This document shows, piece after piece, positions 5,815 through 30,170 of a DNA stretch of 64,000 nt. Each line of letters opens with the position of its first letter. Position 1 is the stretch's first letter. The translations under genes were made by a program, and so were the position numbers. This stretch comes from Ignavibacteriota bacterium (lineage in GTDB: Bacteria; Bacteroidota; Ignavibacteria; Kapaibacteriales; UBA2268). A model generated the notes under the pieces. The model was not told the origin of the DNA. It did no database searches and worked only from the letters and a program-made list of their open reading frames with translations. The stretch covers positions 573,428-637,427 of the forward strand of contig JAHBUQ010000002.1 in NCBI GenBank assembly GCA_019637995.1. Reading direction: 5' to 3'.

Positions 5815-6684
5815 ATGCCTAAACAATTACTTAATTCACAGTACAGTACAGTACAGTACAGTACAGTACAGTACAGTACAGTACAGTATAAAACCTTCTT
5901 ACTTGTTTTGATAATGTTCATTTTAGGTAATATGAACATTTATGCTGATTCTGATCCCACCTCTTGTGATTGCAATTGCAATGAAATTTTAAAACCTAAG
6001 TATTTTTATGACGAGAACAGCATTATATTGTTAGATGATGGGAATGATTGCTCAATTTTTTCTGTTGATATAACAGGATGTAACGAAAGGACTGTTTTAG
6101 GTTTTACTTTGGATTTTGCGATTGACCCCGATGATCCTTGTTTGAATCAGAATTGGACAGTTAGAGACAAGGTAACTAACCAGATTATTGGCATTTATAA
6201 TCCAACTGTAACTAATCCGACATTTGGTTTCTTTGATCCGCCAGTACAACCTTGCGAAACAAGACCATTTTCTTTTAGAATATGCCCTGAAAACATTATG
6301 CACTGCAGATATAAATCTTTTAACATTGGTATCAATTTAATATTTGCTGAAGGTGACCCACCATGTCCTACTATTAACAAAACTTTAACTTTTGCATGGG
6401 TTAGCTCTGTTACACCTGATGATATTAGTGAATACGTACACTACAACCACAAAGAAGAGAATCTATTTATTGACTACAGCCACTTAATTACAAAGTTTCA
6501 ACAAAAAGATTTGAGAATAATAATTAGCAATCTAAATGGTGAGAATCTTCTTAATGATATTTTTAATCATAATCAATCTATAATTAATTTATCAAACCTC
6601 AGTAATGGTAAATATTTTGGCTATATTAGCCGAAATTATGGGACAGAAGTGTTAGCTACATTTATTTTTTCAATCATAAAATAG
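5815..6684 (+). CDS. Cys-rich secreted protein with pentanucleotide repeat, phase-variable candidate (ON)
   Basis: 289 residues. After MPKQLLNSQ comes a repetitive (YSTVQ)n segment encoded by a 5-bp repeat, then a hydrophobic signal peptide (FLLVLIMFILGNMNIYAD) and a Cys-rich mature part (CDCNC, then scattered Cys). The last ~75 residues look like a divergent T9SS sorting domain (LRIIISNLNGENL ... NLSNGKYFGYI). The start is supported by AAAGG 7 nt upstream. It heads an operon with two more secreted proteins, the next starting 12 bp later. Because the repeat unit is 5 bp, slippage by one unit shifts the frame. The two other frames hit a stop just after the tract (TAA 5889-5891, TGA 5909-5911). 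Function unknown; a surface or extracellular role is inferred. Confidence 0.75.
   Translation: MPKQLLNSQYSTVQYSTVQYSTVQYKTFLLVLIMFILGNMNIYADSDPTSCDCNCNEILKPKYFYDENSIILLDDGNDCSIFSVDITGCNERTVLGFTLDFAIDPDDPCLNQNWTVRDKVTNQIIGIYNPTVTNPTFGFFDPPVQPCETRPFSFRICPENIMHCRYKSFNIGINLIFAEGDPPCPTINKTLTFAWVSSVTPDDISEYVHYNHKEENLFIDYSHLITKFQQKDLRIIISNLNGENLLNDIFNHNQSIINLSNLSNGKYFGYISRNYGTEVLATFIFSIIK
5838..5888 (+). repeat. Pentanucleotide simple sequence repeat (GTACA)9
   Basis: Nine uninterrupted copies of GTACA at 5841-5885, with a partial unit on each side. It lies inside the coding region, starting 8 codons after the ATG and ending just before the signal peptide. Three units make 15 bp, encoding the five-residue repeat YSTVQ. 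Any change that is not a multiple of three units puts the rest of the gene out of frame. Confidence 0.95.
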
Positions 6685-6696
6685 AGAGAGAGTGAA

Positions 6697-8127
6697 ATGA
6701 AGGGAGTTTTTTTTATATTATTTTCTTTGACAATAATATCAAGCAAAATTTTTTCAACACAGATAGAGTATACTGAAATAGATTTCGGGGATGTACCAAT
6801 CGGTAATAAATCAATGCCCAATATTAAAATGCTCCCTTTTTCAATTCTTAATAAAAGTGATAATCTACTGATTATTGAGCACATGTCTGTAGTGAATAAT
6901 TACGACCGAAAAATTGTTGACAGTGGAAATATTATCAGATTTATACCGGGATATATTTTCAGATATATGAATGGACCCCTTGAGATAAAACCGAATTCAT
7001 CATATACAATGAATGTTTCCTATAACTCTGTTTATGTTGATCCAATAAGTCAGTCCGGGGAAAAACTGAGTAAATCTGTATATATATTTTATAGATACGA
7101 GAATGAAACTGAATACAATATAGATTCTGTTTCATTTTATGCTAGGTCGGTTGAAGGTAGTGAAATAGAAGCCTTTGGACATAAATACGATTTTTATCTA
7201 TGTGAATCAGGTTCGAAATTTATAAGCAATCATTTTTTTGTTGGAGTAATAAACAAATCAAACTCAGATTTAAAAATAGATTCGATTGATGTTAATATAC
7301 TTGGGGATAATTTAATACCAGACAAATTGATAGATGGAGATGGCTTTGAAACCGATTTACTTTTAAGAGATAGCTATTTGTGGTATCAATTCAAATATGA
7401 ATATAAGAATTTTGAAAATTCAATAGGAAAAGTCAGGTTTTATGCTTCTGATAAGAATAATAATGAACTAAATTTAATAGCAGAGGATTCAACAGTTATA
7501 AAATATCATTCAGTTGCAGACGAAGGTAAGTTATCAATGTCAAACAGAAGTATTGTTTTTTATCAAGGAGAATCACAAAAAGTCAGAATGAGTTTACTAA
7601 CATGCAAAAATGAAAATATGGTTTTAGATACTTTGTATTTAGTTGATAACGAGAAAGATGAAATATATACTATTTTCGAACCATTTGATTCATTTCCTAT
7701 TTTTCTTAATACTGATTCAAATTATAATGCTTTTATTGAATTTAAATCAGTAAAACCAGGAACTAGACAGAAGCAAGTTTGTGCAGTTTTTTCAAATTCT
7801 AATAACGATAAATTCTTCAGATGCATAGACATAAATATTACTGTATTAACACTTTCAAGTATTGTTGAGTCTGAGAAAGTCAGCTCAAAATTTTTAATAT
7901 ATCCCCAGCCCGCTAACGATGTACTTAATATCAAATCAAATTCAGAATTTATAAATAAAATTGATTTGATTAAAATTTATGATTTATACGGTAATCTTGT
8001 TTTTCAAAAGACTATTGTTTTTGGTGATGTATCTATACCAATTTCAAATATAAGTAGTGGCATTTATTTTCTTCAAATACATTCATCAGGAAATATTTTT
8101 AATTACAAAATACCTGTAAGCAGATGA
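6697..8127 (+). CDS. Secreted protein with T9SS sorting domain
   Basis: 476 residues with a signal peptide (GVFFILFSLTIISSKIFS) and a C-terminal type A sorting domain of about 80 residues (FLIYPQPANDVLNIKS ... KIYDLYGNLVFQ ... SSGIYFLQI). The central part is beta-rich and reads like Ig-like or abnormal-spindle-type repeats (YTEIDFGDVPIGNKSMP at the start is typical of DUF1573/ASPM-like modules). It is the second gene of the operon, 12 bp after the first; the purine-rich AGAGAGAGAG just before the ATG may act as Shine-Dalgarno. Its last 4 bp overlap the next gene, implying translational coupling. Function unknown. Confidence 0.75.
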   Translation: MKGVFFILFSLTIISSKIFSTQIEYTEIDFGDVPIGNKSMPNIKMLPFSILNKSDNLLIIEHMSVVNNYDRKIVDSGNIIRFIPGYIFRYMNGPLEIKPNSSYTMNVSYNSVYVDPISQSGEKLSKSVYIFYRYENETEYNIDSVSFYARSVEGSEIEAFGHKYDFYLCESGSKFISNHFFVGVINKSNSDLKIDSIDVNILGDNLIPDKLIDGDGFETDLLLRDSYLWYQFKYEYKNFENSIGKVRFYASDKNNNELNLIAEDSTVIKYHSVADEGKLSMSNRSIVFYQGESQKVRMSLLTCKNENMVLDTLYLVDNEKDEIYTIFEPFDSFPIFLNTDSNYNAFIEFKSVKPGTRQKQVCAVFSNSNNDKFFRCIDINITVLTLSSIVESEKVSSKFLIYPQPANDVLNIKSNSEFINKIDLIKIYDLYGNLVFQKTIVFGDVSIPISNISSGIYFLQIHSSGNIFNYKIPVSR

Positions 8128-10262
8128 TTCGGCTAAGAATATTTATATTCAGCTTATTGCTTTTAATCCCAATATTTTTAAAATCTCAAAATCCGGATAA
8201 TATTGGCAAGGAATTTATCGTTTGTTTTCCAAAAAATGATGATGGAGAAAGTATTGGTGCAATTTTACAATTATTGATTATTAATTATGAAAATCAAGAA
8301 ACTCAATTATCAATAAATTTTAGTTATGATGATACTTTACTCAATGATAATATTAATCCATTAGGATCAAAAATTATAAAAATTGATTCGAAATATGAAT
8401 TAGCAACAATAAATGGCATTGAAAGAAATAGTATAAGAATTAAATCAAACACCGATATTTCAGTTTTAATGCTTTCAAAAACAAGAGAGTCTGCTGATGC
8501 GTGTCTTCTTCTTCCTATTTCATCTATTAGCAATAGTTATGTAATCGCTAATATTTCTAATAGAGATGAATTTAATTTAGCACGAATTAATATTGTTGCT
8601 ATTACAAATAATACTTTAGTTGAGATCAATTCTGATGTCAGAATATACAACAGTCATGTAGATTTAGGATTAAAGAAAACCTTAAATTTAGATGAAGGCG
8701 AAGTCTATGTGCTTGTAGCAAATATTAAAGATAATAGCGATTTTTCAGGTACTCATATAACTTCAAACAATCCGATCTCAATTTTTTCATCACATGACAG
8801 AACTTCCTTGCCAACTCATATAGGTACCCAAGATCACATTATTGAACAAGTACCACCAATCAATATACTTGGAAATGAAACAATTTTTACTTTAACTAAG
8901 TTCCCATTATTTAATAGTAATATATACTCAAAAATAGTCGCAGCTTTTGATTCAACAACTATCACTTGGATGAACAATGATACTGTTATATCAAAAGGAG
9001 AGTTCTTAATTTTAAATAGTAATAAACCATTCTACATTAAATCAGATAAATCTGTTCTATTCTCTCAATTCGAGCAATCTGCAAAGATTCCTTTAACTAA
9101 AGGAGACCCATTTTTAGCTTTCATTCCACCTATTCAGCAGTGGAAGAATAATTATAAATTTTTCAGTCCTGAACTTGAGGATTTTACAGAACATTGGATA
9201 AATATTGCTATTCATAAAAATTCACTAAATTCAATTATTCTTGATGGTCAAATTATTGATACCGGTAATTTTACAAATGTGGAAGGAACAGAGTACTATT
9301 CCGGTTATGTTGAAGTAAAAAAGGGACTTCACAGTATTGAAGCAGATAGTAATTTTTCTCTTTTAGTTTATGGCTATGGTATAATAATCAGTTACGGCTA
9401 CACAGGCGGTATGAAGACCGAAAGACTGCTCGAAAAAATTATGGATTCAAATCCGCCTGAATTACAGTCAAAAATTCATTGCGATGCCGAAATTGTCATA
9501 ACTGAATTAAATGAATACGATTCAGGGATTGAAAGCATTAAGCTAGTTGAACAAGATAATTTAACAGTGGATATTCCGGTTTTTGAAAAGGGTGCATTTA
9601 AAGCTGTAATAAACATGAAGCTTATTGATGAAAACCTCGATGGCTTTGCTATTCTGAAGTCCCGTGATGTAAAAGGGCATGAGCGGCTTGATACAATGCG
9701 GCTTTTCGGATTTGATTTATCCCATCATTTTGCAGGTTATTTTGATACATTGTTTTATTCAGAATTTCGATGCGATTCAATAAAATTGTCAAATCGCAGC
9801 TTATCAAAGCGTACATTTCATCTTTATTTTGAAAAAAATACTGAAATATCTGTCCCGCCAAGCTATGCTACAATAACTTTAGAGCCGACAAGGGATACAA
9901 TCGTACCATTTTGTGTTTATGCAGATTTTATGGGCAGTACAAGCGATAATTTGATCCTCCTTGATGATTGTAACCGTAAGTACAGGATTCCTGTGAGTTA
10001 TACAATTGCTGATTTCCCCTCCGATATAAATACAAAATGTGAAGTAACTCTGGAGTTTACAATCGTTAGTGATTTGAGAAGTATTGCAGCAAATAATGAC
10101 TTTGGTCAGAATATAATTATGAAAGTATTTAATTTATCCGGCAGAGAACTATATAGCGGCACACCAAATGATATAAGTAACAATTTCATAAGAGGCGTGT
10201 ATTTCGTACTCTTCATTGATAACAACTCAATAACAAAGCGTATGATGGTAAGAATTGATTAA
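8124..10262 (+). CDS. Secreted IgGFc-binding-like protein with degenerate T9SS domain
   Basis: 712 residues. Signal peptide (FIFSLLLLIPIFLKS), then an N-terminal region of about 420 residues resembling the bacterial IgGFc_binding family: NIGKEFIVCFP near the start, a run of short beta repeats, SIFSSHDRTSLP, FLAFIPPIQQW and the closing LLVYGYGIIISYGYTGG. A second beta-rich region follows, and a short sorting-like end (IMKVFNLSGRELY ... RGVYFVLFI). The family name comes from similarity to mucin/FcgBP domains; in bacteria these are secreted proteins of unknown ligand. The ATG overlaps the previous stop (ATGA), and it is the last gene of the operon. Confidence 0.65.
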   Translation: MIRLRIFIFSLLLLIPIFLKSQNPDNIGKEFIVCFPKNDDGESIGAILQLLIINYENQETQLSINFSYDDTLLNDNINPLGSKIIKIDSKYELATINGIERNSIRIKSNTDISVLMLSKTRESADACLLLPISSISNSYVIANISNRDEFNLARINIVAITNNTLVEINSDVRIYNSHVDLGLKKTLNLDEGEVYVLVANIKDNSDFSGTHITSNNPISIFSSHDRTSLPTHIGTQDHIIEQVPPINILGNETIFTLTKFPLFNSNIYSKIVAAFDSTTITWMNNDTVISKGEFLILNSNKPFYIKSDKSVLFSQFEQSAKIPLTKGDPFLAFIPPIQQWKNNYKFFSPELEDFTEHWINIAIHKNSLNSIILDGQIIDTGNFTNVEGTEYYSGYVEVKKGLHSIEADSNFSLLVYGYGIIISYGYTGGMKTERLLEKIMDSNPPELQSKIHCDAEIVITELNEYDSGIESIKLVEQDNLTVDIPVFEKGAFKAVINMKLIDENLDGFAILKSRDVKGHERLDTMRLFGFDLSHHFAGYFDTLFYSEFRCDSIKLSNRSLSKRTFHLYFEKNTEISVPPSYATITLEPTRDTIVPFCVYADFMGSTSDNLILLDDCNRKYRIPVSYTIADFPSDINTKCEVTLEFTIVSDLRSIAANNDFGQNIIMKVFNLSGRELYSGTPNDISNNFIRGVYFVLFIDNNSITKRMMVRID

Positions 10263-17927: not shown

Positions 17928-19301
17928 TCAATTACCTATTTTCACAAAACCGCTTGTAACAGATAAGCCGGAACTATTGTAAAGCTGCAAATAATACGTT
18001 CCCTGCTCAAGACCGGAAATATCTATACGATAGCTTGACAACAACTCACTTTGCAATTTCCTGCCTTTAATATCGTAAATTTTGTATCGTTCGTAATGTT
18101 GTATCATATCGTGACTTAGAGTGATGAATGAGTATGCCGGGTTGGGATAGATCCCTAATTCTGTTGCTTCTTTAGAATTTACAGATAAAGGTAGTTTCCC
18201 TTTAAAAATACCATCATTTGAAGTGGCTAACAGAGGATTTTCTCCTAAAAATGTGATAAATTGATAAACTCTGTTTTGCTTTTGACTAACATCCTCAGGA
18301 CTTTCATTTATCCACGAGTTGCCACCATCGGTCGTTCTAAGTATTAAGCCGTTTGAACCGACTAAAATACCAATATCTAAATTATGAAAGGAAATATTGC
18401 TGAATGTTGAACTTGAATCCATAAATTCATAGATAACTTGCCAACTTTCACCGCCATCAATGGTTTTGAGAAGTACAGACTTTTTTTGGTCTTTTTCAAC
18501 ATTGTCATCTTCTGTTGCTATAATCCAGCCAGTTGATTTATCGAAGAAATATATATTCTTTATAAATATATATGGCTCATCCATCGTTTTCCTTTCAAAC
18601 AATGTTGTTAGATGCCAGGTATCTCCAAAATTACTTGTTTTTGCTATTACTGATTTTGTTTCAAGAAATTGCTCAGTTATTTTCTTGTGAAAAATCACAC
18701 TCACAAAGAAATTTCTTTCATCAATTGAACATACAAATTTTGTCGGAGTATTACTATTACGAACACTGAATCCTTCAGGTATCATTTCTTCATCAAAAAT
18801 TAACTCACGGTAACTATTCCAACCATCATTTGTTATAAAAACATAAGCAGGAAATCCGGCTATTCCTGATAAATTGTTATACATATCAATATCCCATACA
18901 GGCATATTTATTTTTCCTGTATGTTTCTGACTTACAAAAATAATTGTATCATGAATATTAGTAATCAAGTTATGAATAATCAAATGTGCATCACTTGAAC
19001 CAATAAATATTTTATCCCCAACAGGATATGAAATATTGGTTGAAGTCAGTGGAAATGGTTTGTTTGGTTGATTCACATCATCGTATAGTACATCCCAATT
19101 TAAACCAGCGTTAGTAGAATACATAAGTCTTCTATAAAAAGACTTATGTGCTAAAGCAGCACAAAGACTACCGTTTGCACAGTCAATTGATTGCACATAC
19201 TCACTATTTGTTCGAACCCTGTCCCATTCAATTTGTGAATTTAATATGGATGGTACAAATGTTATGAAAATTAAACCAATTATAATAAATCGAATTTTCA
19301 T
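17928..19301 (-). CDS. Secreted YCF48/Asp-box-like protein with T9SS sorting domain
   Basis: 457 residues: signal peptide (FIIIGLIFITFVPSILNS), a beta-propeller-like region with Asp-box motifs (KTIDGGESWQVI, RTTDGGNSWINES; an earlier STNAGLNWDVL) and a C-terminal sorting domain (LGIYPNPAYSFITLS ... KIYDIKGRKLQ ... GTYYLQLY). This sorting domain lacks the two palindrome-encoded insertions found in its neighbours. YCF48-like propellers in bacteria are secreted or assembly factors; the role here is unknown. The start follows the previous gene's stop by 2 nt and uses a Shine-Dalgarno inside that gene's last codons. Paralogous to 19304-20713 and 24494-25927. Confidence 0.8.
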   Translation of the reverse strand: MKIRFIIIGLIFITFVPSILNSQIEWDRVRTNSEYVQSIDCANGSLCAALAHKSFYRRLMYSTNAGLNWDVLYDDVNQPNKPFPLTSTNISYPVGDKIFIGSSDAHLIIHNLITNIHDTIIFVSQKHTGKINMPVWDIDMYNNLSGIAGFPAYVFITNDGWNSYRELIFDEEMIPEGFSVRNSNTPTKFVCSIDERNFFVSVIFHKKITEQFLETKSVIAKTSNFGDTWHLTTLFERKTMDEPYIFIKNIYFFDKSTGWIIATEDDNVEKDQKKSVLLKTIDGGESWQVIYEFMDSSSTFSNISFHNLDIGILVGSNGLILRTTDGGNSWINESPEDVSQKQNRVYQFITFLGENPLLATSNDGIFKGKLPLSVNSKEATELGIYPNPAYSFITLSHDMIQHYERYKIYDIKGRKLQSELLSSYRIDISGLEQGTYYLQLYNSSGLSVTSGFVKIGN

Positions 19302-19561
19302 CTCTATCTCTCCATTTTAATGAATTTATCAAAATAACTTCCAATTCTTATGAAATACACTCCTGCCGGCAAATGAGAGACATCAATTCTTAAATTCCCC
19401 TCACCCGTGGGTGTCAGCGCAGCTGACGGGGTGGATATGACTTCAATTCCAAGCATATCAAATATCTGCACTTTATCAACCAACCCATCAACCCTGCGGT
19501 TAACCGTAGGGTTGATTTCAGGGATAGAAATTGTAATGAAATCACTTGCGGGGTTGGGATA
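19298..19561 (-). repeat. Sorting-domain module copy A with two palindromic insertions
   Basis: About 260 bp nearly identical to 24488-24751 and, over most of its length, to 23279-23520. It encodes the T9SS sorting domain and, at its end, the Shine-Dalgarno and start of the next gene. Palindrome 1 (19402-19432) encodes the segment around PSAALTPTGEGN. Palindrome 2 (19489-19514) is a 26-bp near-perfect palindrome encoding the segment around NPTVNRRVDG. Both are richer in G+C than their surroundings. Confidence 0.85.
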
Positions 19562-20771: not shown

Positions 20772-22538
20772 TTAATTGACAATAATCACTTTCTCAGTCT
20801 TAACTGAAATACCATCAATAACAAGTGAATAAAAATAAACACCGTTTGAAAGGTTTATAGTGTTAAGATTAAGATGTTTGTTTGTATCAGTAAACACAAT
20901 ATTATGAATCACAGAACCATGCAAATTATAAATTTTAAGTTCTGCTTTCTGACCTTTTTTTATGTATTTACTTAAATCAATACTTTCTTTATTGTAATTA
21001 ATAGTACCGATTGTAGTATTTATATTTTCAATGTTGAAATTTTCAATTAATTTTTTATTTATTGCTAAAGGGTAAAAATCACCTATTAATAGCATCCAAT
21101 CACAATTTGGCAAACAAAAATACAAATTTCCCCAAATGTTTATGAAATTAAAACCACAAATTGAAAGCCAATCCGGTACAATATTTGGCATTACATGCAC
21201 ACCATTTGAATCCTTGCAAACTGTGATTGGCAATATACAACAATCAGAACTATCACATTTTACAGACACCATAACAGAATCAATCACAAAATCGAAAGGA
21301 TTATAAGTAGGGTCTAATATCGGGTCAGCTCTTCTCATATAGTACTCAGGATAAGTTGCCCAACAGCCACCTGAACCTACCTGCCAAGTAGTATCACATT
21401 GACCTGGTTGTTGAGGTTTAAATTGCATTTCGTTCATATTAATAATTTTTCCGAAAGCTTCTTTCATCAACAAATCCTTGCTGCATAACTCACATTGCCA
21501 ATTTTTTCTAACTAATGCAAGTATTTCCAATTCTTGCTTGCCTTGGCAAGTTCTTGTAACATAATTTACTTGAACATTACATCCCGGGCAAATATCAGAT
21601 GGGTAGATTGCTACATGATATTCCCAAGTTTCTCCCTCACATTCTGTCATACATGGTTCGGGTAAATCAATATCAATTGTGTCAGGAATATTTGTTGTAT
21701 CACAAAATTTGGTATGTGAAAGAATGCATGGATTAGGGTCGCCCGGATACCTGAGAAGTGTTATATATGCTTCACTTGTTTCACCCGGATTAATACATCC
21801 GTTATAATTTGATATAGGATAAGTTTCTATACTATGAGGTGGCTCTGAAGCAATAACATTCATAGGCAGATTATCGTAATAGTAGTATTTAAAGCAAGTA
21901 ATGTTATCAGGAATATTAAGATTATGAACAACGGCACATCCATCAGGACATAAATCGGGATTAGGTCCAACCGTAGTTGTAAACCAGCCATTAGTGGTTT
22001 CATCAGGACATTCGCAGCACTGGCTGGCATCTCTTGAATAAGAATATGAATTGTAACCCTCGGCAGGTTCTGAACTCCAAATACAGAAATAGTTACTTGT
22101 TCCCGGGTCAATGAAAGCGACTCTTATTTCAAAGATGTCCAATCCATATTTCGGACATATTAAGAAGCTGATATTTGAATTATAAGAATCATTGTAGTCA
22201 ACTGTTTCATACTCTTGCGTTATTGGATTAAACAACTGAAACAGGATTTTTGCAGAACAGTAGGGATTATAAATTTCAATAAAAACACAACAATTTGTAG
22301 TATCAGTGAAATTCACATCAATATAGTCACAGCATAAACTACTACTTATTTCATCTGATATTGCTTTGTTATAATTTGACAAAAATAGAATCATAATAGC
22401 TGCTATCAGTAAATATTTTGAAAAGCTGTTATGTAATAACTGCTGCTCTGCTGCTCTGCTGCTCTGCTGCTCTGCTGCTCTGCTGCTCTGCTGCTCTGCT
22501 GCTCTGCGAGCAGCTACTAAGTAAATATTCGACATCAT
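20772..22538 (-). CDS. Cys-rich secreted protein with octanucleotide repeat, phase-variable candidate (ON)
   Basis: 588 residues. The N terminus MMSNIYLVAAR is followed by an AAEQQSSR repeat encoded by an 8-bp tandem repeat, then a signal peptide (KYLLIAAIMILFLSNYNKAIS) and a Cys-rich mature region with paired Cys (LCCDYIDV, NCCVF, SQCCECP, CDSSDCCILP). The C terminus reads as a sorting domain (LKIYNLHGSVIHN ... LSNGVYFYSLVIDG). GGAGG lies 7 nt before the first ATG. It is a clear paralog of 25951-27706 (shared QPGQCDTTWQVGSGGCWA and other blocks), sharing its whole upstream region. In this sequence the tract leaves the gene in frame. Function unknown; surface display is inferred from the signal peptide and C terminus. 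Confidence 0.8.
   Translation of the reverse strand: MMSNIYLVAARRAAEQQSSRAAEQQSSRAAEQQLLHNSFSKYLLIAAIMILFLSNYNKAISDEISSSLCCDYIDVNFTDTTNCCVFIEIYNPYCSAKILFQLFNPITQEYETVDYNDSYNSNISFLICPKYGLDIFEIRVAFIDPGTSNYFCIWSSEPAEGYNSYSYSRDASQCCECPDETTNGWFTTTVGPNPDLCPDGCAVVHNLNIPDNITCFKYYYYDNLPMNVIASEPPHSIETYPISNYNGCINPGETSEAYITLLRYPGDPNPCILSHTKFCDTTNIPDTIDIDLPEPCMTECEGETWEYHVAIYPSDICPGCNVQVNYVTRTCQGKQELEILALVRKNWQCELCSKDLLMKEAFGKIINMNEMQFKPQQPGQCDTTWQVGSGGCWATYPEYYMRRADPILDPTYNPFDFVIDSVMVSVKCDSSDCCILPITVCKDSNGVHVMPNIVPDWLSICGFNFINIWGNLYFCLPNCDWMLLIGDFYPLAINKKLIENFNIENINTTIGTINYNKESIDLSKYIKKGQKAELKIYNLHGSVIHNIVFTDTNKHLNLNTINLSNGVYFYSLVIDGISVKTEKVIIVN
22441..22507 (-). repeat. Octanucleotide simple sequence repeat, 8 full units
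   Basis: Eight perfect copies of an 8-bp unit (plus strand GCTGCTCT) at 22442-22505 with partial units at both ends. It lies about 10 codons after the start and immediately before the signal peptide. Three units (24 bp) encode the eight-residue peptide repeat AAEQQSSR. Eight is not a multiple of three, so gain or loss of one unit shifts the frame. Confidence 0.96.
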
Positions 22539-22567
22539 AAAAAATCCTCCAAAAATTTATAAAATTG

Positions 22568-22590
22568 GTACAAATTTTGTTAATTTGTAC
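22568..22590 (-). promoter_or_regulatory. Inverted repeat GTACAAAT-N7-ATTTGTAC in leader of repeat protein
   Basis: A perfect 8-bp inverted repeat with a 7-nt spacer, about 17 nt upstream of the Shine-Dalgarno of the gene at 20772-22538. It could be an operator or an RNA hairpin in the 5' leader. It is conserved in the second copy at 27736-27758, but that may only reflect recent duplication. No clear TTTG/TAnnTTTG promoter is found nearby. Confidence 0.5.
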
Positions 22591-22717
22591 ATGATAAAGC
22601 CCCAAATCATTAAAATAAATTATCAAAGTGCTGATTCCTATATGCAACTTAATTCATTTTCAATTAATTTCCAAATTTTATTTTAAAATATTTTAAATGT
22701 TTTCCATTTTTATAAAA

Positions 22718-22750
22718 AAATCCACCGTATATTTTTCATACGATGGATTT
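22718..22750 (-). terminator. Terminator behind norZ tail copy 1
   Basis: A stem of 12 pairs out of 13 (AAATCCACCGTAT with ATACGATGGATTT), followed on the minus strand by a T-run. Identical to the norZ terminator at 27886-27918. It insulates the repeat protein from transcription reading out of the unit upstream. Confidence 0.85.
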
Positions 22751-22773
22751 ATTTTTATCTGCGATAGTTCTTT

Positions 22774-23192
22774 CTACTTTCTATTAACTTTTAATGTCAA
22801 TACGAACCAGGCAAATCCGATTGCACCAATTGCGAAAATAGTATCACCAAAAACACGCATCCACTTGAAGAAACCTACAACCGGTGTCTGCAAAAATTCA
22901 GCTGAACGTGCATACCATAATCCGTGATTTACACTTGCTATTGTCTGCAAAAGTCCGACCGGAAGCAAACTGAGTAATGCCATTGCCGCAAGACCAATAT
23001 TTATACTCCAGAATGAATATTTTAACAGTTTCTCATTCCACGCGATCTCTGTATTCATACTGCGGAGAACGAAAAGCATCAATCCGATACCCAACATTCC
23101 ATATACTCCGAAAAGTGCAGTATGACCGTGGAGTGGCGTTGTGTTTAAGCCCTGCATATAGTATAATGCAATAGGCGGATTAATCAAAAAGC
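22774..23192 (-). pseudogene. Truncated norZ 3' fragment
   Basis: Encodes the last ~139 residues of the quinol-dependent nitric oxide reductase, nearly identical to the intact norZ at 27942-30170 (INPPIALYYMQGLN, HGHTALFGVYGMLG, IFAIGAIGFAWF). It lacks the N-terminal extension and the part carrying the HLWVEG and FHHLY motifs. No Shine-Dalgarno precedes the first Met, and the break at 23192 runs straight into foreign sequence, so it is a duplication by-product rather than a gene. Confidence 0.9.
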
Positions 23193-23255: not shown

Positions 23256-24491
23256 TTACATCTTCACAAATTTCTCTACACGTGTGCCAATCCTAATGAA
23301 ATACACTCCTGCCGGCAAATGAGAGACATCAATTCTTAAATTCCCCTCACCCGTGGGTGTCAGCGCAGCTGACGGGGTAGATATGACTTCAATTCCAAGC
23401 ATATCAAATATCTGCACTTTATCAACCAACCCATCAACCCTGCGGTTAACCGTAGGGTTGATTTCAGGGATAGAAATTGTAATGAAATCACTTGCCGGGT
23501 TGGGATAGATCCCTAATTCTGTTGCTTCTTTAGAATTTACGGAAGTATTTTTAGAGATTACTTCTGCCAAAACCGATAATGAAGAAATTGCTATTTTTGA
23601 GTTATCATACAAATAATCTAAATTCAAATTTTCGAACTTATCATTTATACCGGAAGCAATGCTATCTATTGCTCTGTAAGAATTAGTAAAAGTTAGGTCA
23701 GAAACATGAGGTAATTGCGACCTAAGTGTAGCAAAGCCTTTAACTGTATTGTTTTTAAAAGTATTCAGATTCAAAACCTCAGTGGAGAATTTAAAAGTGG
23801 ATACAAGATGAGATGCTTTTACAGTATCTGAAGTAAAAAATGTATTTTCATTTTGGAAAAGTTCTCTTCCTAAACCCGTAAGAAAAATATTCTCCTGAAA
23901 TTCAATATCTGATTTATTTAAAGAATCCAACAAATGACCGGGACCATAACCTGAATCATAAACATCATCAAATCCTGCAAATACAATAGTTTTCTCATTT
24001 TCGTAACTTTTCAAGATTCTTGCTGCTTCGAGCATAATGGCAATACCTGTAGCATTTAAATTTGCACCGGGCAATGTATCAGTTAGTGGATCTACCATTA
24101 ATGAATAGCGTGTATCAAAGTTAGCTGAAAATAAAACAACATTTTGAGGTTTAGTTCTTCCGGGCTTAATAGCATAAGAGGTTTCCAAAGAAACAGTCCA
24201 GTTTGAAGGAAATACTGATACAAAGTGTGCATCATAACCATATTCGGCTAATTTATTTGTTATATACTTTGCAGCTAATTTATTAAGGTCTGACTTGTAA
24301 TACCTGTTAATAAATTTAATCTCCTGTCCATCAACAATCACAGTGTTTTCGCCTGACAAATCCTTGATTATCTGTTCAATATTTTCAATATTGACTTTTG
24401 ATGCAATTTCTTTTATAAGTATCTCATTAGATACTGAGCCGATTACAAAATACAACATAAAAAATATGATAATTATTGCTATTCTTTTCAT
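23256..24491 (-). CDS. Secreted M28-peptidase-like protein lacking zinc ligands, with T9SS sorting domain
   Basis: 411 residues. Signal peptide (RIAIIIIFFMLYFVIGSVS), then a fold that follows M28 aminopeptidases: VVLFSANFDT (122-127 aligns with GAHYDS), LPGANLNATGIAIMLEAARIL (aligns with PGADDNASG) and TIVFAGFDDVYDSGYG (aligns with the AFxxEE block). The zinc ligands are replaced: His by Asn, Asp by Leu, Glu-Glu by Asp-Val. It is therefore probably not an active peptidase. The C terminus is a sorting domain with the two palindromic insertions and ends RVEKFVKM. It is the last gene of the first array unit, starting 2 nt after the previous stop. Confidence 0.75.
   Translation of the reverse strand: MKRIAIIIIFFMLYFVIGSVSNEILIKEIASKVNIENIEQIIKDLSGENTVIVDGQEIKFINRYYKSDLNKLAAKYITNKLAEYGYDAHFVSVFPSNWTVSLETSYAIKPGRTKPQNVVLFSANFDTRYSLMVDPLTDTLPGANLNATGIAIMLEAARILKSYENEKTIVFAGFDDVYDSGYGPGHLLDSLNKSDIEFQENIFLTGLGRELFQNENTFFTSDTVKASHLVSTFKFSTEVLNLNTFKNNTVKGFATLRSQLPHVSDLTFTNSYRAIDSIASGINDKFENLNLDYLYDNSKIAISSLSVLAEVISKNTSVNSKEATELGIYPNPASDFITISIPEINPTVNRRVDGLVDKVQIFDMLGIEVISTPSAALTPTGEGNLRIDVSHLPAGVYFIRIGTRVEKFVKM
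23279..23520 (-). repeat. Sorting-domain module copy B
   Basis: Nearly identical to copies A and C across the sorting domain, including palindrome 1 (23348-23378) and palindrome 2 (23435-23460). Its 3' end differs from A and C. Upstream of it, the codons for NSKEATELGIYPNPA match the gene at 17928-19301 instead, so this sorting domain is a mosaic. Confidence 0.85.
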
Positions 24492-24751
24492 CTCTATCTC
24501 TCCATTTTAATGAATTTATCAAAATAACTTCCAATTCTTATGAAATACACTCCTGCCGGCAAATGAGAGACATCAATTCTTAAATTCCCCTCACCCGTGG
24601 GTGTCAGCGCAGCTGACGGGGTAGATATGACTTCAATTCCAAGCATATCAAATATCTGCACTTTATCAACCAACCCATCAACCCTGCGGTTAACCGTAGG
24701 GTTGATTTCAGGGATAGAAATTGTAATATAATCACTTGCAGGGTTGGGGTA
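24488..24751 (-). repeat. Sorting-domain module copy C
   Basis: Matches copy A base for base over almost all its length, including the last codons, the stop, and the Shine-Dalgarno and ATG of the following gene. Palindrome 1 is at 24592-24622, palindrome 2 at 24679-24704. Similarity stops near 24751, where the two host proteins diverge. Confidence 0.85.
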
Positions 24752-25927
24752 TAAACCAAATCCACCATCCTGATAATCAACTGATGATGTATTATAAGTG
24801 CCGACGAATATTCCATCATCAAGACAACTTAACATGGGTATATCGCCCGCAAAATCACCACTCATAAGTGATTTACCATGACTCCATTCGCTTGACATAT
24901 TTGGATTTTCATCATTCCAGGTCTCTCCGCCATCGTATGTGGAAAGTATTTTTCCGATTCTACCTAATACAAATCCGTGAAGTGAATCACGAAAGAACAA
25001 ATTATTAAGTTCAAATACAAATGGGTCAGAATATGCAAGTTGAACCTTCCAGTTTAAACCACCATCCGTTGTTTTATAGACATAGGATGAATCATTACCA
25101 ATTCTACCACTACCTACTGCCCAACCAATTTTGTCATTTACAAAGTCGAAGCGTATGACATAATATACTGGTTGTTCATGTGTATCGTTATCACATAAAG
25201 TAAAAAAGTCCCATGATTTTCCACGATTGCTTGTTTTTGCTATTCCTGATTTACTTATAAAGACAAATTGACTGGGATTATGATAAAATTTAACATAAAG
25301 TAAAAAATTATTACTGTCAATCATATATAATGGATTCCCAGCACCAAGTCCTAATGCCATTATATAGCCGTCAGGTTTATGTTCCAAAGGACCCGGAATA
25401 CTATCAAAAGTATTCCACCCGTCTCTGGTGAAAAACATTTGTTTTGAGGTTGAAGCTACACCATAATTTGTATCAACCATAGATATATGTCTTATACCTG
25501 AAGCATATAAATTTTCTTCTTCCCATTCTTCATGAAGTATAAGACGAACTGTATCCATAGTTTTAAAATCGTCCTTTGTTCTTCGTATCATACCTCGGTC
25601 TGATGCCAAAAAAACATGCCCGTTAAAAGGTGCAGCAATTTCATACGCTTTAGAATATTTAGGTCGGGGAAATGTATCCACTTTTGTATAAAACTCATTC
25701 AACTTACTTCGCCAAAGTCTTTGTGGATTCTCTGATTTCAAAACTCCTGTATAACCTTGCATAGCTGTAAGACAATAACAATTACTGTTATCTGCACATA
25801 TCAGACTTCGGTACATCATATCTTTTGCAGGAATATTTTTCTGTGCCCAAGTGATTTCTGCAAATGAGTTATTTATATAAGAAAGCAATATTAAAATAAC
25901 AAGTATAAGCAATCTGTGGAAAATCAT
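24494..25927 (-). CDS. Secreted YCF48/Asp-box-like protein with T9SS sorting domain
   Basis: 477 residues. Signal peptide (FHRLLILVILILLSYINNSFA), a propeller-like body with Asp-box-like motifs (KTSNRGKSWDFF, KTTDGGLNWKVQ, STYDGGETWNDE), and a sorting domain identical over its last ~85 residues to that of 19304-20713. AAGGAG lies 6 nt before the ATG, and the gene starts 23 bp after the repeat protein's stop. It is the paralog in the first array unit of the gene at 19304. Extracellular function unknown. Confidence 0.82.
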   Translation of the reverse strand: MIFHRLLILVILILLSYINNSFAEITWAQKNIPAKDMMYRSLICADNSNCYCLTAMQGYTGVLKSENPQRLWRSKLNEFYTKVDTFPRPKYSKAYEIAAPFNGHVFLASDRGMIRRTKDDFKTMDTVRLILHEEWEEENLYASGIRHISMVDTNYGVASTSKQMFFTRDGWNTFDSIPGPLEHKPDGYIMALGLGAGNPLYMIDSNNFLLYVKFYHNPSQFVFISKSGIAKTSNRGKSWDFFTLCDNDTHEQPVYYVIRFDFVNDKIGWAVGSGRIGNDSSYVYKTTDGGLNWKVQLAYSDPFVFELNNLFFRDSLHGFVLGRIGKILSTYDGGETWNDENPNMSSEWSHGKSLMSGDFAGDIPMLSCLDDGIFVGTYNTSSVDYQDGGFGLYPNPASDYITISIPEINPTVNRRVDGLVDKVQIFDMLGIEVISTPSAALTPTGEGNLRIDVSHLPAGVYFIRIGSYFDKFIKMER

Positions 25928-25950: not shown

Positions 25951-27706
25951 CTATTTTATAATAATAATTTTGTCGGATTTGATAACAACACCATCAAAAT
26001 AAATATTATAAAAATAAATACCGTTATTCAAATCTGAAAAATCGAATTCTTCATTTGTTACATTATTAGTTGTTTTCAATTGAATATTCTTAATTACTCT
26101 GCCCTGTAGATCGAATATTTTAATAGAAGCACTCGTAATGTCCGGTTTAAAGTAAGTAAGTCCTAATTTTGAATTAACCCATTGAGTATGTATTTCCTTG
26201 TTATTTAAATTCTTAATAATATTTTTATTTAACATAATATTCTCATACACTGGGGGAGACCATGGTTCTATTTCAAGGGAATCTAACCAGTTACAATTAG
26301 GAGCACAGTCAAATTGTCTTCCATAAATGTCAGTAGTCTTAATAGAATCACAATTGCTGTGAAGTGGTCCAATATCACGATAAACTCTAATACCATCAGG
26401 ATACCTACAAACTTTAATTGGGATAAAACAACAGTCTGTAGAATCACATTTCACATGATGAAGTATTGAGTCGCGAACGAATATGGGAAATGGATTTTGA
26501 GTTGGGTCAGGCATTGGGTCTGGAAATACGATTTTCCAATAATACAAATAGTATGACGCCCAACAGCCACCTGAACCTACCTGCCAAGTAGTATCACATT
26601 GACCTGGATCTTGAGGTTGAAATTGCATCTGATTTTCATAAACAATAAAATTAAAAGCCTTTCTCATTAATGAAGCATTATTATAACTGCTACTACATCC
26701 CGGGCCACTTATCGAAATCATAGTAATTTCTAATTCCTGTTTACCACAGTTGTCTCTTGTATAATAGTAAATTTTCGCGTTACAATCAACATCCAATGGC
26801 ATATCAATTGTTCTCAAATCCCATATTCCTGCACAATCTGTTGAACAAGGGTCAGGAACATCAGGATCAGGTGCTATAGTAGTATCACATATTGCTTCAG
26901 CAAACATCTCACAAGCTTCCGGGTCATTAGGATAGCGTTGCAGCATTATCGCCGGTGATGTAGTTGTACCATAAGGCATACAACCATCATACATCGAAAT
27001 AGGTTCATTTGTAAGACTTCTGTTTATATTAATATCATTAATGCCTTGTGGGATATTTTCATAAGAGTAATATTTATAACAAGTAATATTCTCAGGTATA
27101 TTTAGGGTATGAACGTATCGGCATCCATCAGGACAACTTGGGTCTGCAAAAGCTTGAACGGTAAACCAAGTATTTTGATGAGGAGGACATTCGCAGCACT
27201 GGCTGGCATCAGTTTCAAAGGTAAATGAATTCCACCCTTCTTCGCGATAGAATCCTGTATTACACCAGTACTTATTTTCATCTCCCGTATCAACAACCGA
27301 AACTCTGAATTTTAAAATAGTTTCCCCATTTTCAGGACAAATAATGAACTTAACTGTATCATTATAAACTCCTTCTAAATGTTTTGTTTCATATTGTTGG
27401 GTAACAGGATTATAGTATTGGAACTTAAAATTGGCGTCACAATCCAGGTTGTATGCAGAAATCTCAACACAGCAATTGTCAGCCGGTCTATAATCTACAC
27501 TGACACACCAACAACAAACTCCTTCGGGACACGTTGTTAAAGAGTATGAATTATGATAACAAATCATAATTGCAACTATTATTGTAAAGAATAAAGTAGA
27601 ACCATTAAACCTGCTCTGCTGCTCTGCTGCTCTGCTGCTCTGCTGCTCTGCTGCTCTGCTGCTCTGCAGCTCTGCGAGCAGCTACTAAGTAAATATTCGA
27701 CATCAT
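25951..27706 (-). CDS. Cys-rich secreted protein with octanucleotide repeat, out of frame (phase OFF)
   Basis: Paralog of 20772-22538. The ATG at 27706 (GGAGG upstream) reads MMSNIYLVAARRAAEQQSSR... and then stops at TAA 27605-27607, after 33 codons. The long downstream frame is open from the repeat tract: it reads through a signal peptide (RFNGSTLFFTIIVAIMICY) into 538 further residues of Cys-rich sequence (CCWCVSVD, NCCVEI, SQCCECP, QPGQCDTTWQVGSGGCWA) and ends in a sorting domain (IKIFDLQGRVIKN ... LNNGIYFYNIYFDG). The two frames differ by one base; adding one 8-bp unit, or losing two, joins them. The Met at 27567 lies inside the signal peptide and is unlikely to be a real start. The rest of the reading frame is intact, arguing for a switch rather than decay. 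Confidence 0.8.
27611..27675 (-). repeat. Octanucleotide simple sequence repeat, about 8 units with one variant
   Basis: Six perfect 8-bp units (27618-27665), a seven-base partial unit on the downstream side and one unit with a T-to-A change next to the start codon (27666-27673). Same unit and position as at 22441-22507, but the total length leaves the gene out of frame. Confidence 0.95.
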
Positions 27707-27735
27707 AAAAAATCCTCCAAAAATTTATAAAATTG

Positions 27736-27758
27736 GTACAAATTTTGTTAATTTGTAC
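27736..27758 (-). promoter_or_regulatory. Inverted repeat GTACAAAT-N7-ATTTGTAC in leader of repeat protein
   Basis: Second copy of the element at 22568-22590, identical in sequence and in position relative to the start codon. Confidence 0.5.
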
Positions 27759-27885
27759 ATGATAAAGCCCCAAATCATTAAAATAAATTATCAAAGTGCT
27801 GATTCCTATATGCAACTTAATTCATTTTCAATTAATTTCCAAATTTTATTTTAAAATATTTTAAATGTTTTCCATTTTTATAAAA

Positions 27886-27918
27886 AAATCCACCGTATAT
27901 TTTTCATACGATGGATTT
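27886..27918 (-). terminator. norZ terminator
   Basis: A stem of 12 pairs out of 13 with a 7-nt loop, followed on the minus strand by a run of seven T. It lies 24 bp past the norZ stop. Confidence 0.88.
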
Positions 27919-27941
27919 ATTTTTATCTGCGATAGTTCTTT

Positions 27942-30170
27942 CTACTTTCTATTAACTTTTAATGTCAATACGAACCAGGCAAATCCGATTGCACCAATTG
28001 CGAAAATAGTATCACCAAAAACACGCATCCACTTGAAGAAACCTACAACCGGTGTCTGCAAAAATTCAGCTGAACGTGCATACCATAATCCGTGATTTAC
28101 ACTTGCTATTGTCTGCAAAAGTCCGACCGGAAGCAAACTGAGTAATGCCATTGCCGCAAGACCAATATTTATACTCCAGAATGAATATTTTAACAGTTTC
28201 TCATTCCACGCGATCTCTGTATTCATACTGCGGAGAACAAATAGCATCAATCCGATACCCAACATTCCATATACTCCGAAAAGTGCAGTATGACCGTGGA
28301 GTGGCGTTGTATTTAAGCCCTGCATATAGTATAATGCAATAGGCGGATTAATCAAAAAGCCAAAAATTCCGGCACCTACAAGATTCCAAAAGGCAACTGC
28401 AATGAAGCTGTATATTGCCCATTTATATTTTTCAAGCCAAACAGTTGCTTTACTTATTTTCAGATTATGAAATACTTCAAAGCCAATCATCACAAGAGGC
28501 ACGACCTCCAGAGCGCTGAATGTTGCTCCAAGAGCCAGTACTTCGATTGGTGTTCCCGAAAAATACAGGTGATGAAATGTACCTAATATACCACCGGACA
28601 GGAATACTGTAGTAGATGTTAATGATGCGACTGTTGCGGTCTTTATTTTAAGCAAACCAAGTTTCACAAATAAGAATGCAATTACAACAGTTGCAAAAAC
28701 TTCAAAGAAACCTTCAACCCAGAGATGTACCACCCACCAGCGCCAGTACTCAGTAATAGCAAGATGAGTGCGCTGTCCCCACATCAATCCTGCACCATAG
28801 AAAAGAGCTATTGCGATGATTGATATTGCAAAAAGTATCAGCAAGGGTTTGTTCTCATCAGCTTTTTTGATGGCAGGCATAAGTGGTCTGAACATCAGTA
28901 CTAACCATATTATTAAACCTACGAAGAGGAATATCTGCCAGAATCGCCCTAAATCAACATATTCCAAACCTTGGTGACCGAACCAGAAGTTTGCAGTATA
29001 ACCTAATTTCTGCATAATTCCGAACCATTGACCTGCAAGAGAGCCGACAACTATAATTAAAAGAGCTATAAACAGGAAATTCACCCCAAATTTTTGATAT
29101 TTCGGCTCATAACCTGAAATAGCCGGAGCAATGAACATTCCGGTTGCAAGCCATGAAGTAGCAATCCAGAATATCCCAAGCTGAACGTGCCAGGTACGTG
29201 TAAGACTGTAAGGCATAAAATCAGCAATCGGGATTGAATAGAAAGCCTGACCTTCAACACCATAGTGAGCTGTTACAATACCTGAAATTATCTGTGCTAC
29301 AATTAACAATACCACAACCCACAAATATTTCAGTATTGCATGCATTGATGGGGTGATGGTAAGTCCAGCCATCGGATTAGTAACTGGATAGGAATCAGGG
29401 TGGTCTTCTTTCGTAGATGCATGCAGGAATATCATTCCACCAATACCGGCTATAAGCATAATTACGCTGAAACCTGTCCAGAGCATAAGACTTCCTGCCG
29501 GTTTATTTTCTACTAATTCTTCGTGGGGCCAGTTATTAGTATAGGATATATCCTGTCCGGGACGTTGAGTTACTGCCGCCCATGCAGTCCAGAAGAAGAA
29601 CGCATTTAACTTTTCCATTCTATCTTCATCCTGGATTGTATTATTTTTCATTGCATACGCTTTTCGCAACTCGAGATACTCAGGGTCATTCATAAAGAGC
29701 TTTCTGTAATGCTCGCTGTTTGACTGATATGCTCTTGCTCTGACTTCAGATATTGCTACAGTTTCTGTTTCAGGGTCGTAAGAATTGAATCTTATGTCCT
29801 TGATTAATCTCGCTTTCAGTGCTGCTTTCTTTTCGACATCAAGTTTTTCATACTCAACGCCAAATTCGGCTCTACTAAAGTCATTCAGTATAAAAACTGC
29901 TTCTCTGTGGAGCCAGTCTGCTGTCCAGTCCGGAGCAATGTATGCTCCATGTCCCCAAACAGAGCCCAGTTGCTGACCACCCGTAGAATGCCATACATTT
30001 TGTCCGTCAAGTATGTCTTCGCTTTCTGCAATCAGATTGCCGTTAGCATCTATTATCTTCAAAGGGATGGGCGGTTTTTCACGGTAGATTTCTCCGCCAT
30101 AATAAAGCAATACGGCGAACGAAATACCGATTACTGCACTTAAAATATACCAGTATTTTTTGTAACTCAT
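27942..30170 (-). CDS. norZ: Quinol-dependent nitric oxide reductase
   Basis: 742 residues from the ATG at 30170, which has GGAG 8 nt upstream; an in-frame ATG at 30209 lacks one. A single-chain qNOR: a membrane anchor (YILSAVIGISFAVLLYYGG), a periplasmic cytochrome-c-like extension without a haem CxxCH motif (GQNVWHSTGGQQLGSVWGHGAYIAPDW), then about 12 NorB-type membrane segments with metal-ligand regions VVHLWVEGFFEV and GTFHHLYFSG, and HGHTALFGVYG. It reduces nitric oxide to nitrous oxide with electrons from the quinol pool, for detoxification or denitrification. It is divergent from a TetR gene that may control it, and upstream of the secreted-protein array with a terminator between. Confidence 0.93.
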   Translation of the reverse strand: MSYKKYWYILSAVIGISFAVLLYYGGEIYREKPPIPLKIIDANGNLIAESEDILDGQNVWHSTGGQQLGSVWGHGAYIAPDWTADWLHREAVFILNDFSRAEFGVEYEKLDVEKKAALKARLIKDIRFNSYDPETETVAISEVRARAYQSNSEHYRKLFMNDPEYLELRKAYAMKNNTIQDEDRMEKLNAFFFWTAWAAVTQRPGQDISYTNNWPHEELVENKPAGSLMLWTGFSVIMLIAGIGGMIFLHASTKEDHPDSYPVTNPMAGLTITPSMHAILKYLWVVVLLIVAQIISGIVTAHYGVEGQAFYSIPIADFMPYSLTRTWHVQLGIFWIATSWLATGMFIAPAISGYEPKYQKFGVNFLFIALLIIVVGSLAGQWFGIMQKLGYTANFWFGHQGLEYVDLGRFWQIFLFVGLIIWLVLMFRPLMPAIKKADENKPLLILFAISIIAIALFYGAGLMWGQRTHLAITEYWRWWVVHLWVEGFFEVFATVVIAFLFVKLGLLKIKTATVASLTSTTVFLSGGILGTFHHLYFSGTPIEVLALGATFSALEVVPLVMIGFEVFHNLKISKATVWLEKYKWAIYSFIAVAFWNLVGAGIFGFLINPPIALYYMQGLNTTPLHGHTALFGVYGMLGIGLMLFVLRSMNTEIAWNEKLLKYSFWSINIGLAAMALLSLLPVGLLQTIASVNHGLWYARSAEFLQTPVVGFFKWMRVFGDTIFAIGAIGFAWFVLTLKVNRK

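Follow-up and report, generated by a model that had tools for sequence, protein, structure and literature searches.

The window analysed here, a stretch of 64,000 nucleotides from an Ignavibacteriota bacterium, carries on its minus strand a gene (gene B) whose start codon and long coding frame are set apart by a tandem octanucleotide repeat and do not join. Read in the direction of transcription, the elements of gene B are as follows.

27736..27758, minus strand: inverted repeat GTACAAATT-N-AATTTGTAC upstream of the Shine-Dalgarno sequence, a possible operator or hairpin
27714-27718, minus strand: Shine-Dalgarno sequence GGAGG, preceding the ATG at 27706
27605..27706, minus strand: start-codon frame (OFF product), ATG at 27706, 33 codons, TAA at 27605-27607
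27611..27675, minus strand: octanucleotide tract (CAGAGCAG)n, 8.1 copies by TRF, 98%, with 57 bp perfect
25951..27681, minus strand: intact downstream frame, +1 from the ATG at 27706, with a signal-like segment, a Cys-rich body and a T9SS type A sorting tail

On the minus strand the leader has the sequence ...TTGGAGGATTTTTT ATG ATG TCG AAT ATT TAC TTA GTA GCT GCT CGC AGA GCT GCA GAG CAG CAG AGC..., and the start frame encodes the peptide MMSNIYLVAARRAAEQQSSRAAEQQSSRAAEQV before the TAA stop. The downstream frame runs for 538 codons from its first ATG (25951-27567) and is open back to 27681, and the ATG frame would connect with that of the body if the tract gained one 8-bp unit or lost two. An initial annotation had proposed just this arrangement, namely a good Shine-Dalgarno sequence and ATG, a start frame closed after 33 codons, a 65-bp tract of 8-bp units, a one-base discrepancy between frames, an undamaged downstream frame with a signal peptide, and a near-identical leader copy at 22538 that is in frame. 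Every element of that observation holds to the base: re-reading of the sequence and TRF reproduced the start, the stop and the tract, the offset is +1, the downstream frame holds, after the tract, the signal-like hydrophobic segment LFFTIIVAIMI (by inspection), and the leader at 22538 is 99.5% identical over 750 bp and continues open for 588 codons from its ATG. That second leader belongs to a paralogue, and the surrounding features are listed below.

20772..22538, minus strand: paralogue A, ON from its ATG, 588 aa, with a T9SS tail, ~42% identical to B
22440..22507, minus strand: octanucleotide tract of paralogue A, 8.5 copies by TRF, 100%, perfect
22443..23192, minus strand: leader cassette copy A, comprising a qNor remnant, intergenic region, Shine-Dalgarno sequence, ATG and tract, with the breakpoint inside the tract
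27611..28360, minus strand: leader cassette copy B, comprising the qNor 3' end, intergenic region, Shine-Dalgarno sequence, ATG and tract
24494..25927, minus strand: BNR/Ycf48-like T9SS-tail protein, 23 bp after gene B
23256..24491, minus strand: M28-peptidase-like protein with a T9SS tail, encoded third in the probable B operon

Proteins A and B are Cys-rich, and only their sorting tails match Pfam. TIGR04183, which describes the T9SS type A sorting tail, scores 36.7 bits for B and 27.4 bits for A, both above the cut-off of 23, while for Pfam PF18962 (cut-off 27) B lies above at 33.7 and A narrowly below at 25.5. Structure prediction (mean pLDDT 74, pTM 0.41) gives a fold of successive beta-sandwiches that yields only weak Ig/FnIII-like matches in the PDB (query TM at most 0.21), and an Rfam search of the leaders and the window returned no match. 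Since its downstream neighbours follow within 25 bp, gene B probably heads an operon of three, and its frameshift may lower the two downstream genes by polarity. BNR-type T9SS genes in the same direction also come after A and after many homologues of the pair.

The 750-bp A/B duplication takes in the 3' end of the nitric oxide reductase (qNor) gene, and its identity ends within the tract, directly ahead of which stands GCTGCTC-GCA-GAGCAGC in copy A, with one mismatch in copy B. Such near-identical leaders on diverged bodies point to a recent duplication or gene conversion in which the tract may have been the joint. T9SS tails that are 97-98% identical are found on three otherwise different genes (window positions 19295-19561, 23287-23510 and 24485-24751), a pattern suggestive of gene conversion or of a shuffling of sorting domains; with leaders and sorting tails both near-identical, both ends of these genes appear to be undergoing homogenisation. 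Gene B might then be a decaying pseudogene, in which the duplication joined leader to body out of frame and left the tract as a recombination scar. The duplication ending inside the tract does establish that recombination occurred there, and a qNor remnant was left ahead of A. We nevertheless consider this explanation very unlikely, because the downstream frame of B is intact through to its T9SS tail, other OFF genes described below are intact too, and the A/B family has gained different tracts at the same point in other species.

Because 8 mod 3 = 2, each of the three frames of the octamer tract specifies one and the same repeating peptide (SSRAAEQQ), free of stops, and phase is set only at the tract exit. 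A signal-like hydrophobic segment follows that exit in paralogue A (YLLIAAIMILFLS, by inspection), as it does in the offset frame of gene B. Since the tract precedes this hydrophobic core and is stop-free in every frame, it would lie ahead of the cleaved part, and all ON lengths should yield one mature protein. Loops of eight bases evade mismatch repair better than short loops, a property that suits a switch. The tracts in the window are also not produced by chance. In first-order Markov versions of the window, tracts with at least 3.5 copies number 0.17 per 64 kb, and the longest does not pass 20 bp. The real window contains three, measuring 51, 57 and 68 bp, and all of them lie no more than ~100 bases into a gene for a secreted protein. 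The third of these, a further candidate switch, consists of the following.

5815..6684, plus strand: secreted-protein gene with a Por_Secre_tail match below cut-off
5838..5888, plus strand: pentanucleotide tract (ACAGT)10.2, just inside that gene and in frame (ON)

An IgGFc-binding-domain protein (8124-10262, PF17517) comes after this gene.

Beyond the window, the 3.9-Mb genome, which encodes at least 150 T9SS tails and on that content probably belongs to a Bacteroidota-like lineage, was sampled at the 5' ends of T9SS-tail genes (139 starts in 100 stretches, 210 kb, representing most of those detected); for tract enrichment at T9SS starts, the comparison set was the window and its flanking sequence only. 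At three loci a tract of GGACAGCC lies in a related leader beginning MYSNLFLGGS. One, from the T9SS-start sampling, has 4.5 copies and is OFF (L023); a second, recovered in a paralogue search, has 6.5 copies plus imperfect units and is OFF (L020); a third has two units only and is OFF, its frame nevertheless open (L021). Elsewhere, a gene without a Pfam match that lies among T9SS-tail genes carries CAGAGCAA in 5.8 copies plus imperfect units and is ON (L211), and a gene with a T9SS tail carries a C14 tract and is OFF (L190). Additionally, an 11-bp repeat, TCTCAACGAAT, occupies a 5' element that three T9SS genes have in common, with 6.9 copies at L182:2264-2339, 4.9 at L199:236-289 and 3.9 at L214:2255-2297; at about one helical turn per unit, changes in its copy number may alter promoter or UTR geometry. 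None of the tract units found in this genome is a multiple of three, and 293 kb of it contained no tract of at least 3.5 copies (at least 18 bp) whose unit measures 6, 9 or 12. These unit sizes bear on the possibility that the tracts are neutral short tandem repeats or protein linkers without a switching role. The same octamer does sit in intergenic places of unrelated genomes, but among neutral or linker tracts within coding sequence, units divisible by three should predominate. The units at gene starts are instead 1, 5 and 8 (2 in a relative), and at least 10 genes are out of frame, such that we regard neutrality as highly improbable.

The ~200-bp GGACAGCC leader precedes genes of DUF7948 type at two of its loci (L020, L021) and an unrelated gene at the third (L023), and its upstream ~150 bp also stand before two genes that lack a tract (L077, L078), making five dispersed loci. 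Around position 1630 of L077 the ~150-bp element leads into a short leader peptide and then a terminator-like hairpin; at L078 it leads directly into the gene. The distribution supports a dispersed, possibly mobile, leader cassette in this genome. Given that the A/B duplication ends in the tract and that the GGACAGCC leader stands before unrelated genes, we tentatively suggest, at somewhat less than an even chance, that recombination carries a cassette, made up of the 5' region, Shine-Dalgarno sequence, start, short inverted repeat and octamer tract, from one dispersed T9SS gene to another, rendering the secreted proteins to which it is joined phase-variable, with the tract itself as the recombination joint.

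A perfect inverted repeat, GGCGGCTC-GAA/GCA-GAGCCGCC, lies directly before the three GGACAGCC tracts. This arrangement invites an explanation in which the hairpin GGCGGCTC-GAA-GAGCCGCC stimulates programmed -1 frameshifting at these leaders, and perhaps elsewhere, or in which a non-canonical start is used, so that nominally OFF loci are translated. All three loci require the same -1 shift (all are in offset 2, an agreement that random phase predicts 1 time in 9), TTTTTA stands immediately ahead of the hairpin, and the units at the beginning of the L020 tract are grouped into repeated blocks of 24 bp, a length that preserves the frame. On the other hand, no spacer separates the hairpin from the heptamer, A TTT TTA does not match a canonical slippery site, and A and B, with their common leader, require offsets of 0 and +1, their homologues 0, 1 or 2. 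Programmed frameshifting at the GGACAGCC loci is thus decidedly unlikely.

Of 119 genomes of the order, 77 yielded homologues in a profile search with A and B, many through the sorting tail only. Comparison of the tract among relatives, which the initial annotation had recommended, upheld the proposal in other genera and families, where different tracts occupy the same place, and failed to do so in the sister species, where the nearest homologue (L031 in genome G002) has no tract. The main octamers are private to this genome, their common pattern CAGCMGRR x3 having been found in no other of 395 genomes of the phylum, so that an orthologous comparison of tract lengths is impossible. The majority of A/B homologues have no tract; among true homologues in other genera, those with different tracts at this position and related cases are:

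L233: C7, OFF, A/B homologue; its counterpart L234 in a sister species has C6 and is ON
L263: C10, OFF, A/B homologue from another genus
L272: (TA)14.5, OFF, A/B homologue
L264: G9, OFF, relative of the L020 type
L246: G13, OFF, from another family, with the tract just past the signal-like segment

Further tracts at L245 and L258 are located upstream. At L233:3903-3920, a tetramer tract, (TTGG)4.5, lies inside the BNR gene downstream of the A/B homologue and is a possible second switch in that operon. That homologous genes bear different repeats at one functional point is difficult to account for without selection for switching. More broadly, 30 of the 54 genomes of the family contain runs of at least 10 G, and of the 30 loci read several lie at secreted-protein starts; L319 and L337 (BspA-type LRR), with poly-G/C tracts, are OFF, and two subtilases that are 42% identical carry poly-C at the same position, C14 and OFF at L325 vs C10 and ON at L338. 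Matches to the octamer across GTDB (39 loci in unrelated bacteria, many intergenic) were rejected as homologues. In a Myxococcales MAG (JACRDA), the same octamer comes after an ATG, at or near the beginning of conserved dispersed leaders of the form ...GGGGTTGCGATG(AGCAGAGC)n, at L106, L108, L117, L129 and L130, as it does at L100 and L119; these loci are candidates for an independent phasome.

Over 18 loci, 5 are ON (A, the gene at 5815, L211, L234 and L338) and 13 OFF (B, L020, L021, L023, L190, L233, L263, L264, L272, L246, L319, L325 and L337), against one-third ON expected at random (binomial p 0.80). The C6, C7 and two-unit L021 tracts are too short to be called hypermutable, and the count without them is 4 of 15 ON. 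The OFF copies that were checked have long open downstream frames, that of gene B being an example, and related copies stand in opposite phase (A ON and B OFF, L338 ON and L325 OFF, L234 ON and L233 OFF). This 5 ON to 13 OFF distribution argues against both extremes, that all such genes are constitutive (all ON) or that they are pseudogenes (decayed frames).

The count is based on one assembly per species, and any single OFF length could be an assembly slip, homopolymers above all. For gene B, an error of assembly or consensus would mean that the real tract differs in length, that the gene is in frame and that its OFF state is an artefact; tandem tracts are error-prone, and a miscount of a single unit would give exactly the observed picture. 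We regard such an error as unlikely, however: at 57-68 bp the tract is short enough for an ordinary short read to span it, an OFF to ON ratio of ~2:1 recurs across many independent assemblies and tract types, and even were the length wrong, a non-triplet tract would still lie between the ATG and the signal peptide.

The slipped-strand phase variation that the initial annotation proposed for gene B therefore gains support from the non-triplet tracts at other secreted-protein starts, the different tracts of homologues and the opposite-phase pairs. Gene B combines what is expected of a slipped-strand locus, a tract beyond chance with a non-triplet unit placed before an intact gene with a Shine-Dalgarno sequence and a start, and from sequence comparison it is very probable that the tract is a translational slipped-strand phase-variation switch of T9SS-secreted proteins. 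Several observations count against such a switch: the three GGACAGCC loci share one offset, the nearest homologue in a sister species and most other homologues have no tract, and L021, which with two units only ought to be fixed in the OFF state, has kept an open frame. In the proposed mechanism, replication slippage would add or remove octamer units, and each single-unit change would shift the frame, 8 not being a multiple of 3. About one-third of lengths would join the strong Shine-Dalgarno sequence and ATG to the signal peptide and the Cys-rich, T9SS-exported body (ON), and the other two-thirds or so would give a short peptide ending at the stop (OFF). In this assembly B would be caught OFF and A ON, the two loci sharing a leader cassette kept near-identical, presumably, by recent duplication or gene conversion. 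The switching that we infer, with its slippage rate, its reversibility, its protein output and any selective benefit, would act upon the anatomy, frames, non-chance tracts and recurrence observed above.

Slipped-strand phase variation is already known as a mechanism; the novelty lies in its lineage, in its association with type IX secretion and in a leader cassette that recombines. The closest known case is that of the opa genes of Neisseria, in which (CTCTT)n lies in the region coding for the signal peptide. As with opa, a multi-copy surface family has a non-triplet tract between the ATG and the mature protein, each copy would be ON or OFF independently, and copies recombine. The present system differs in its octamer and other units as opposed to a pentamer, in its T9SS Cys-rich beta-sandwich proteins as opposed to outer-membrane barrels, in the position of the tract ahead of the signal core, and in a leader cassette common to unrelated genes. 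No homology to the Opa beta-barrel was found, Pfam matching the sorting tail alone and the prediction being a beta-sandwich string; the A/B system is opa-like in logic, not in homology.

Contingency loci of Haemophilus influenzae include the tetranucleotides of lic and the 7-/8-bp repeats of hmwA (PMC11868660), likewise an SSR-mediated multi-locus phasome for surface structures, and the 11-mers described here resemble its promoter-located repeats. The octanucleotide GCATCATC of biogroup aegyptius is part of a putative promoter ahead of hmwA (PMC3309571), whereas the octamer here is in the coding region. In Campylobacter/Helicobacter, poly-G/C tracts switch the frame of surface genes (PMC6321876, PMC2823697); the G9-G13 and C10-C14 tracts of this genome's relatives are comparable, while the phylum, the secretion system and the mixture of unit types in one genome are different. 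Surface features of Bacteroides, a related part of the bacterial tree, are also phase-variable, but by invertible promoters (PMC11868660), that is, by recombinase inversion as opposed to repeat slippage. A search of the open-licence literature found no report of phase variation in Kapabacteria or Ignavibacteria, nor one that combined it with T9SS and Bacteroidota.

Most known examples of multi-locus phase variation driven by repeats come from pathogens, and the present system bears on whether multi-locus phasomes are limited to them (PMC11868660). With several tract types showing the same pattern across its family, it makes that question testable outside the usual pathogens. Automated annotation will label many such genes truncated or pseudo. 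Finally, ordinary metagenomic reads are enough to tell whether genes of this family of T9SS surface proteins are ON or OFF.
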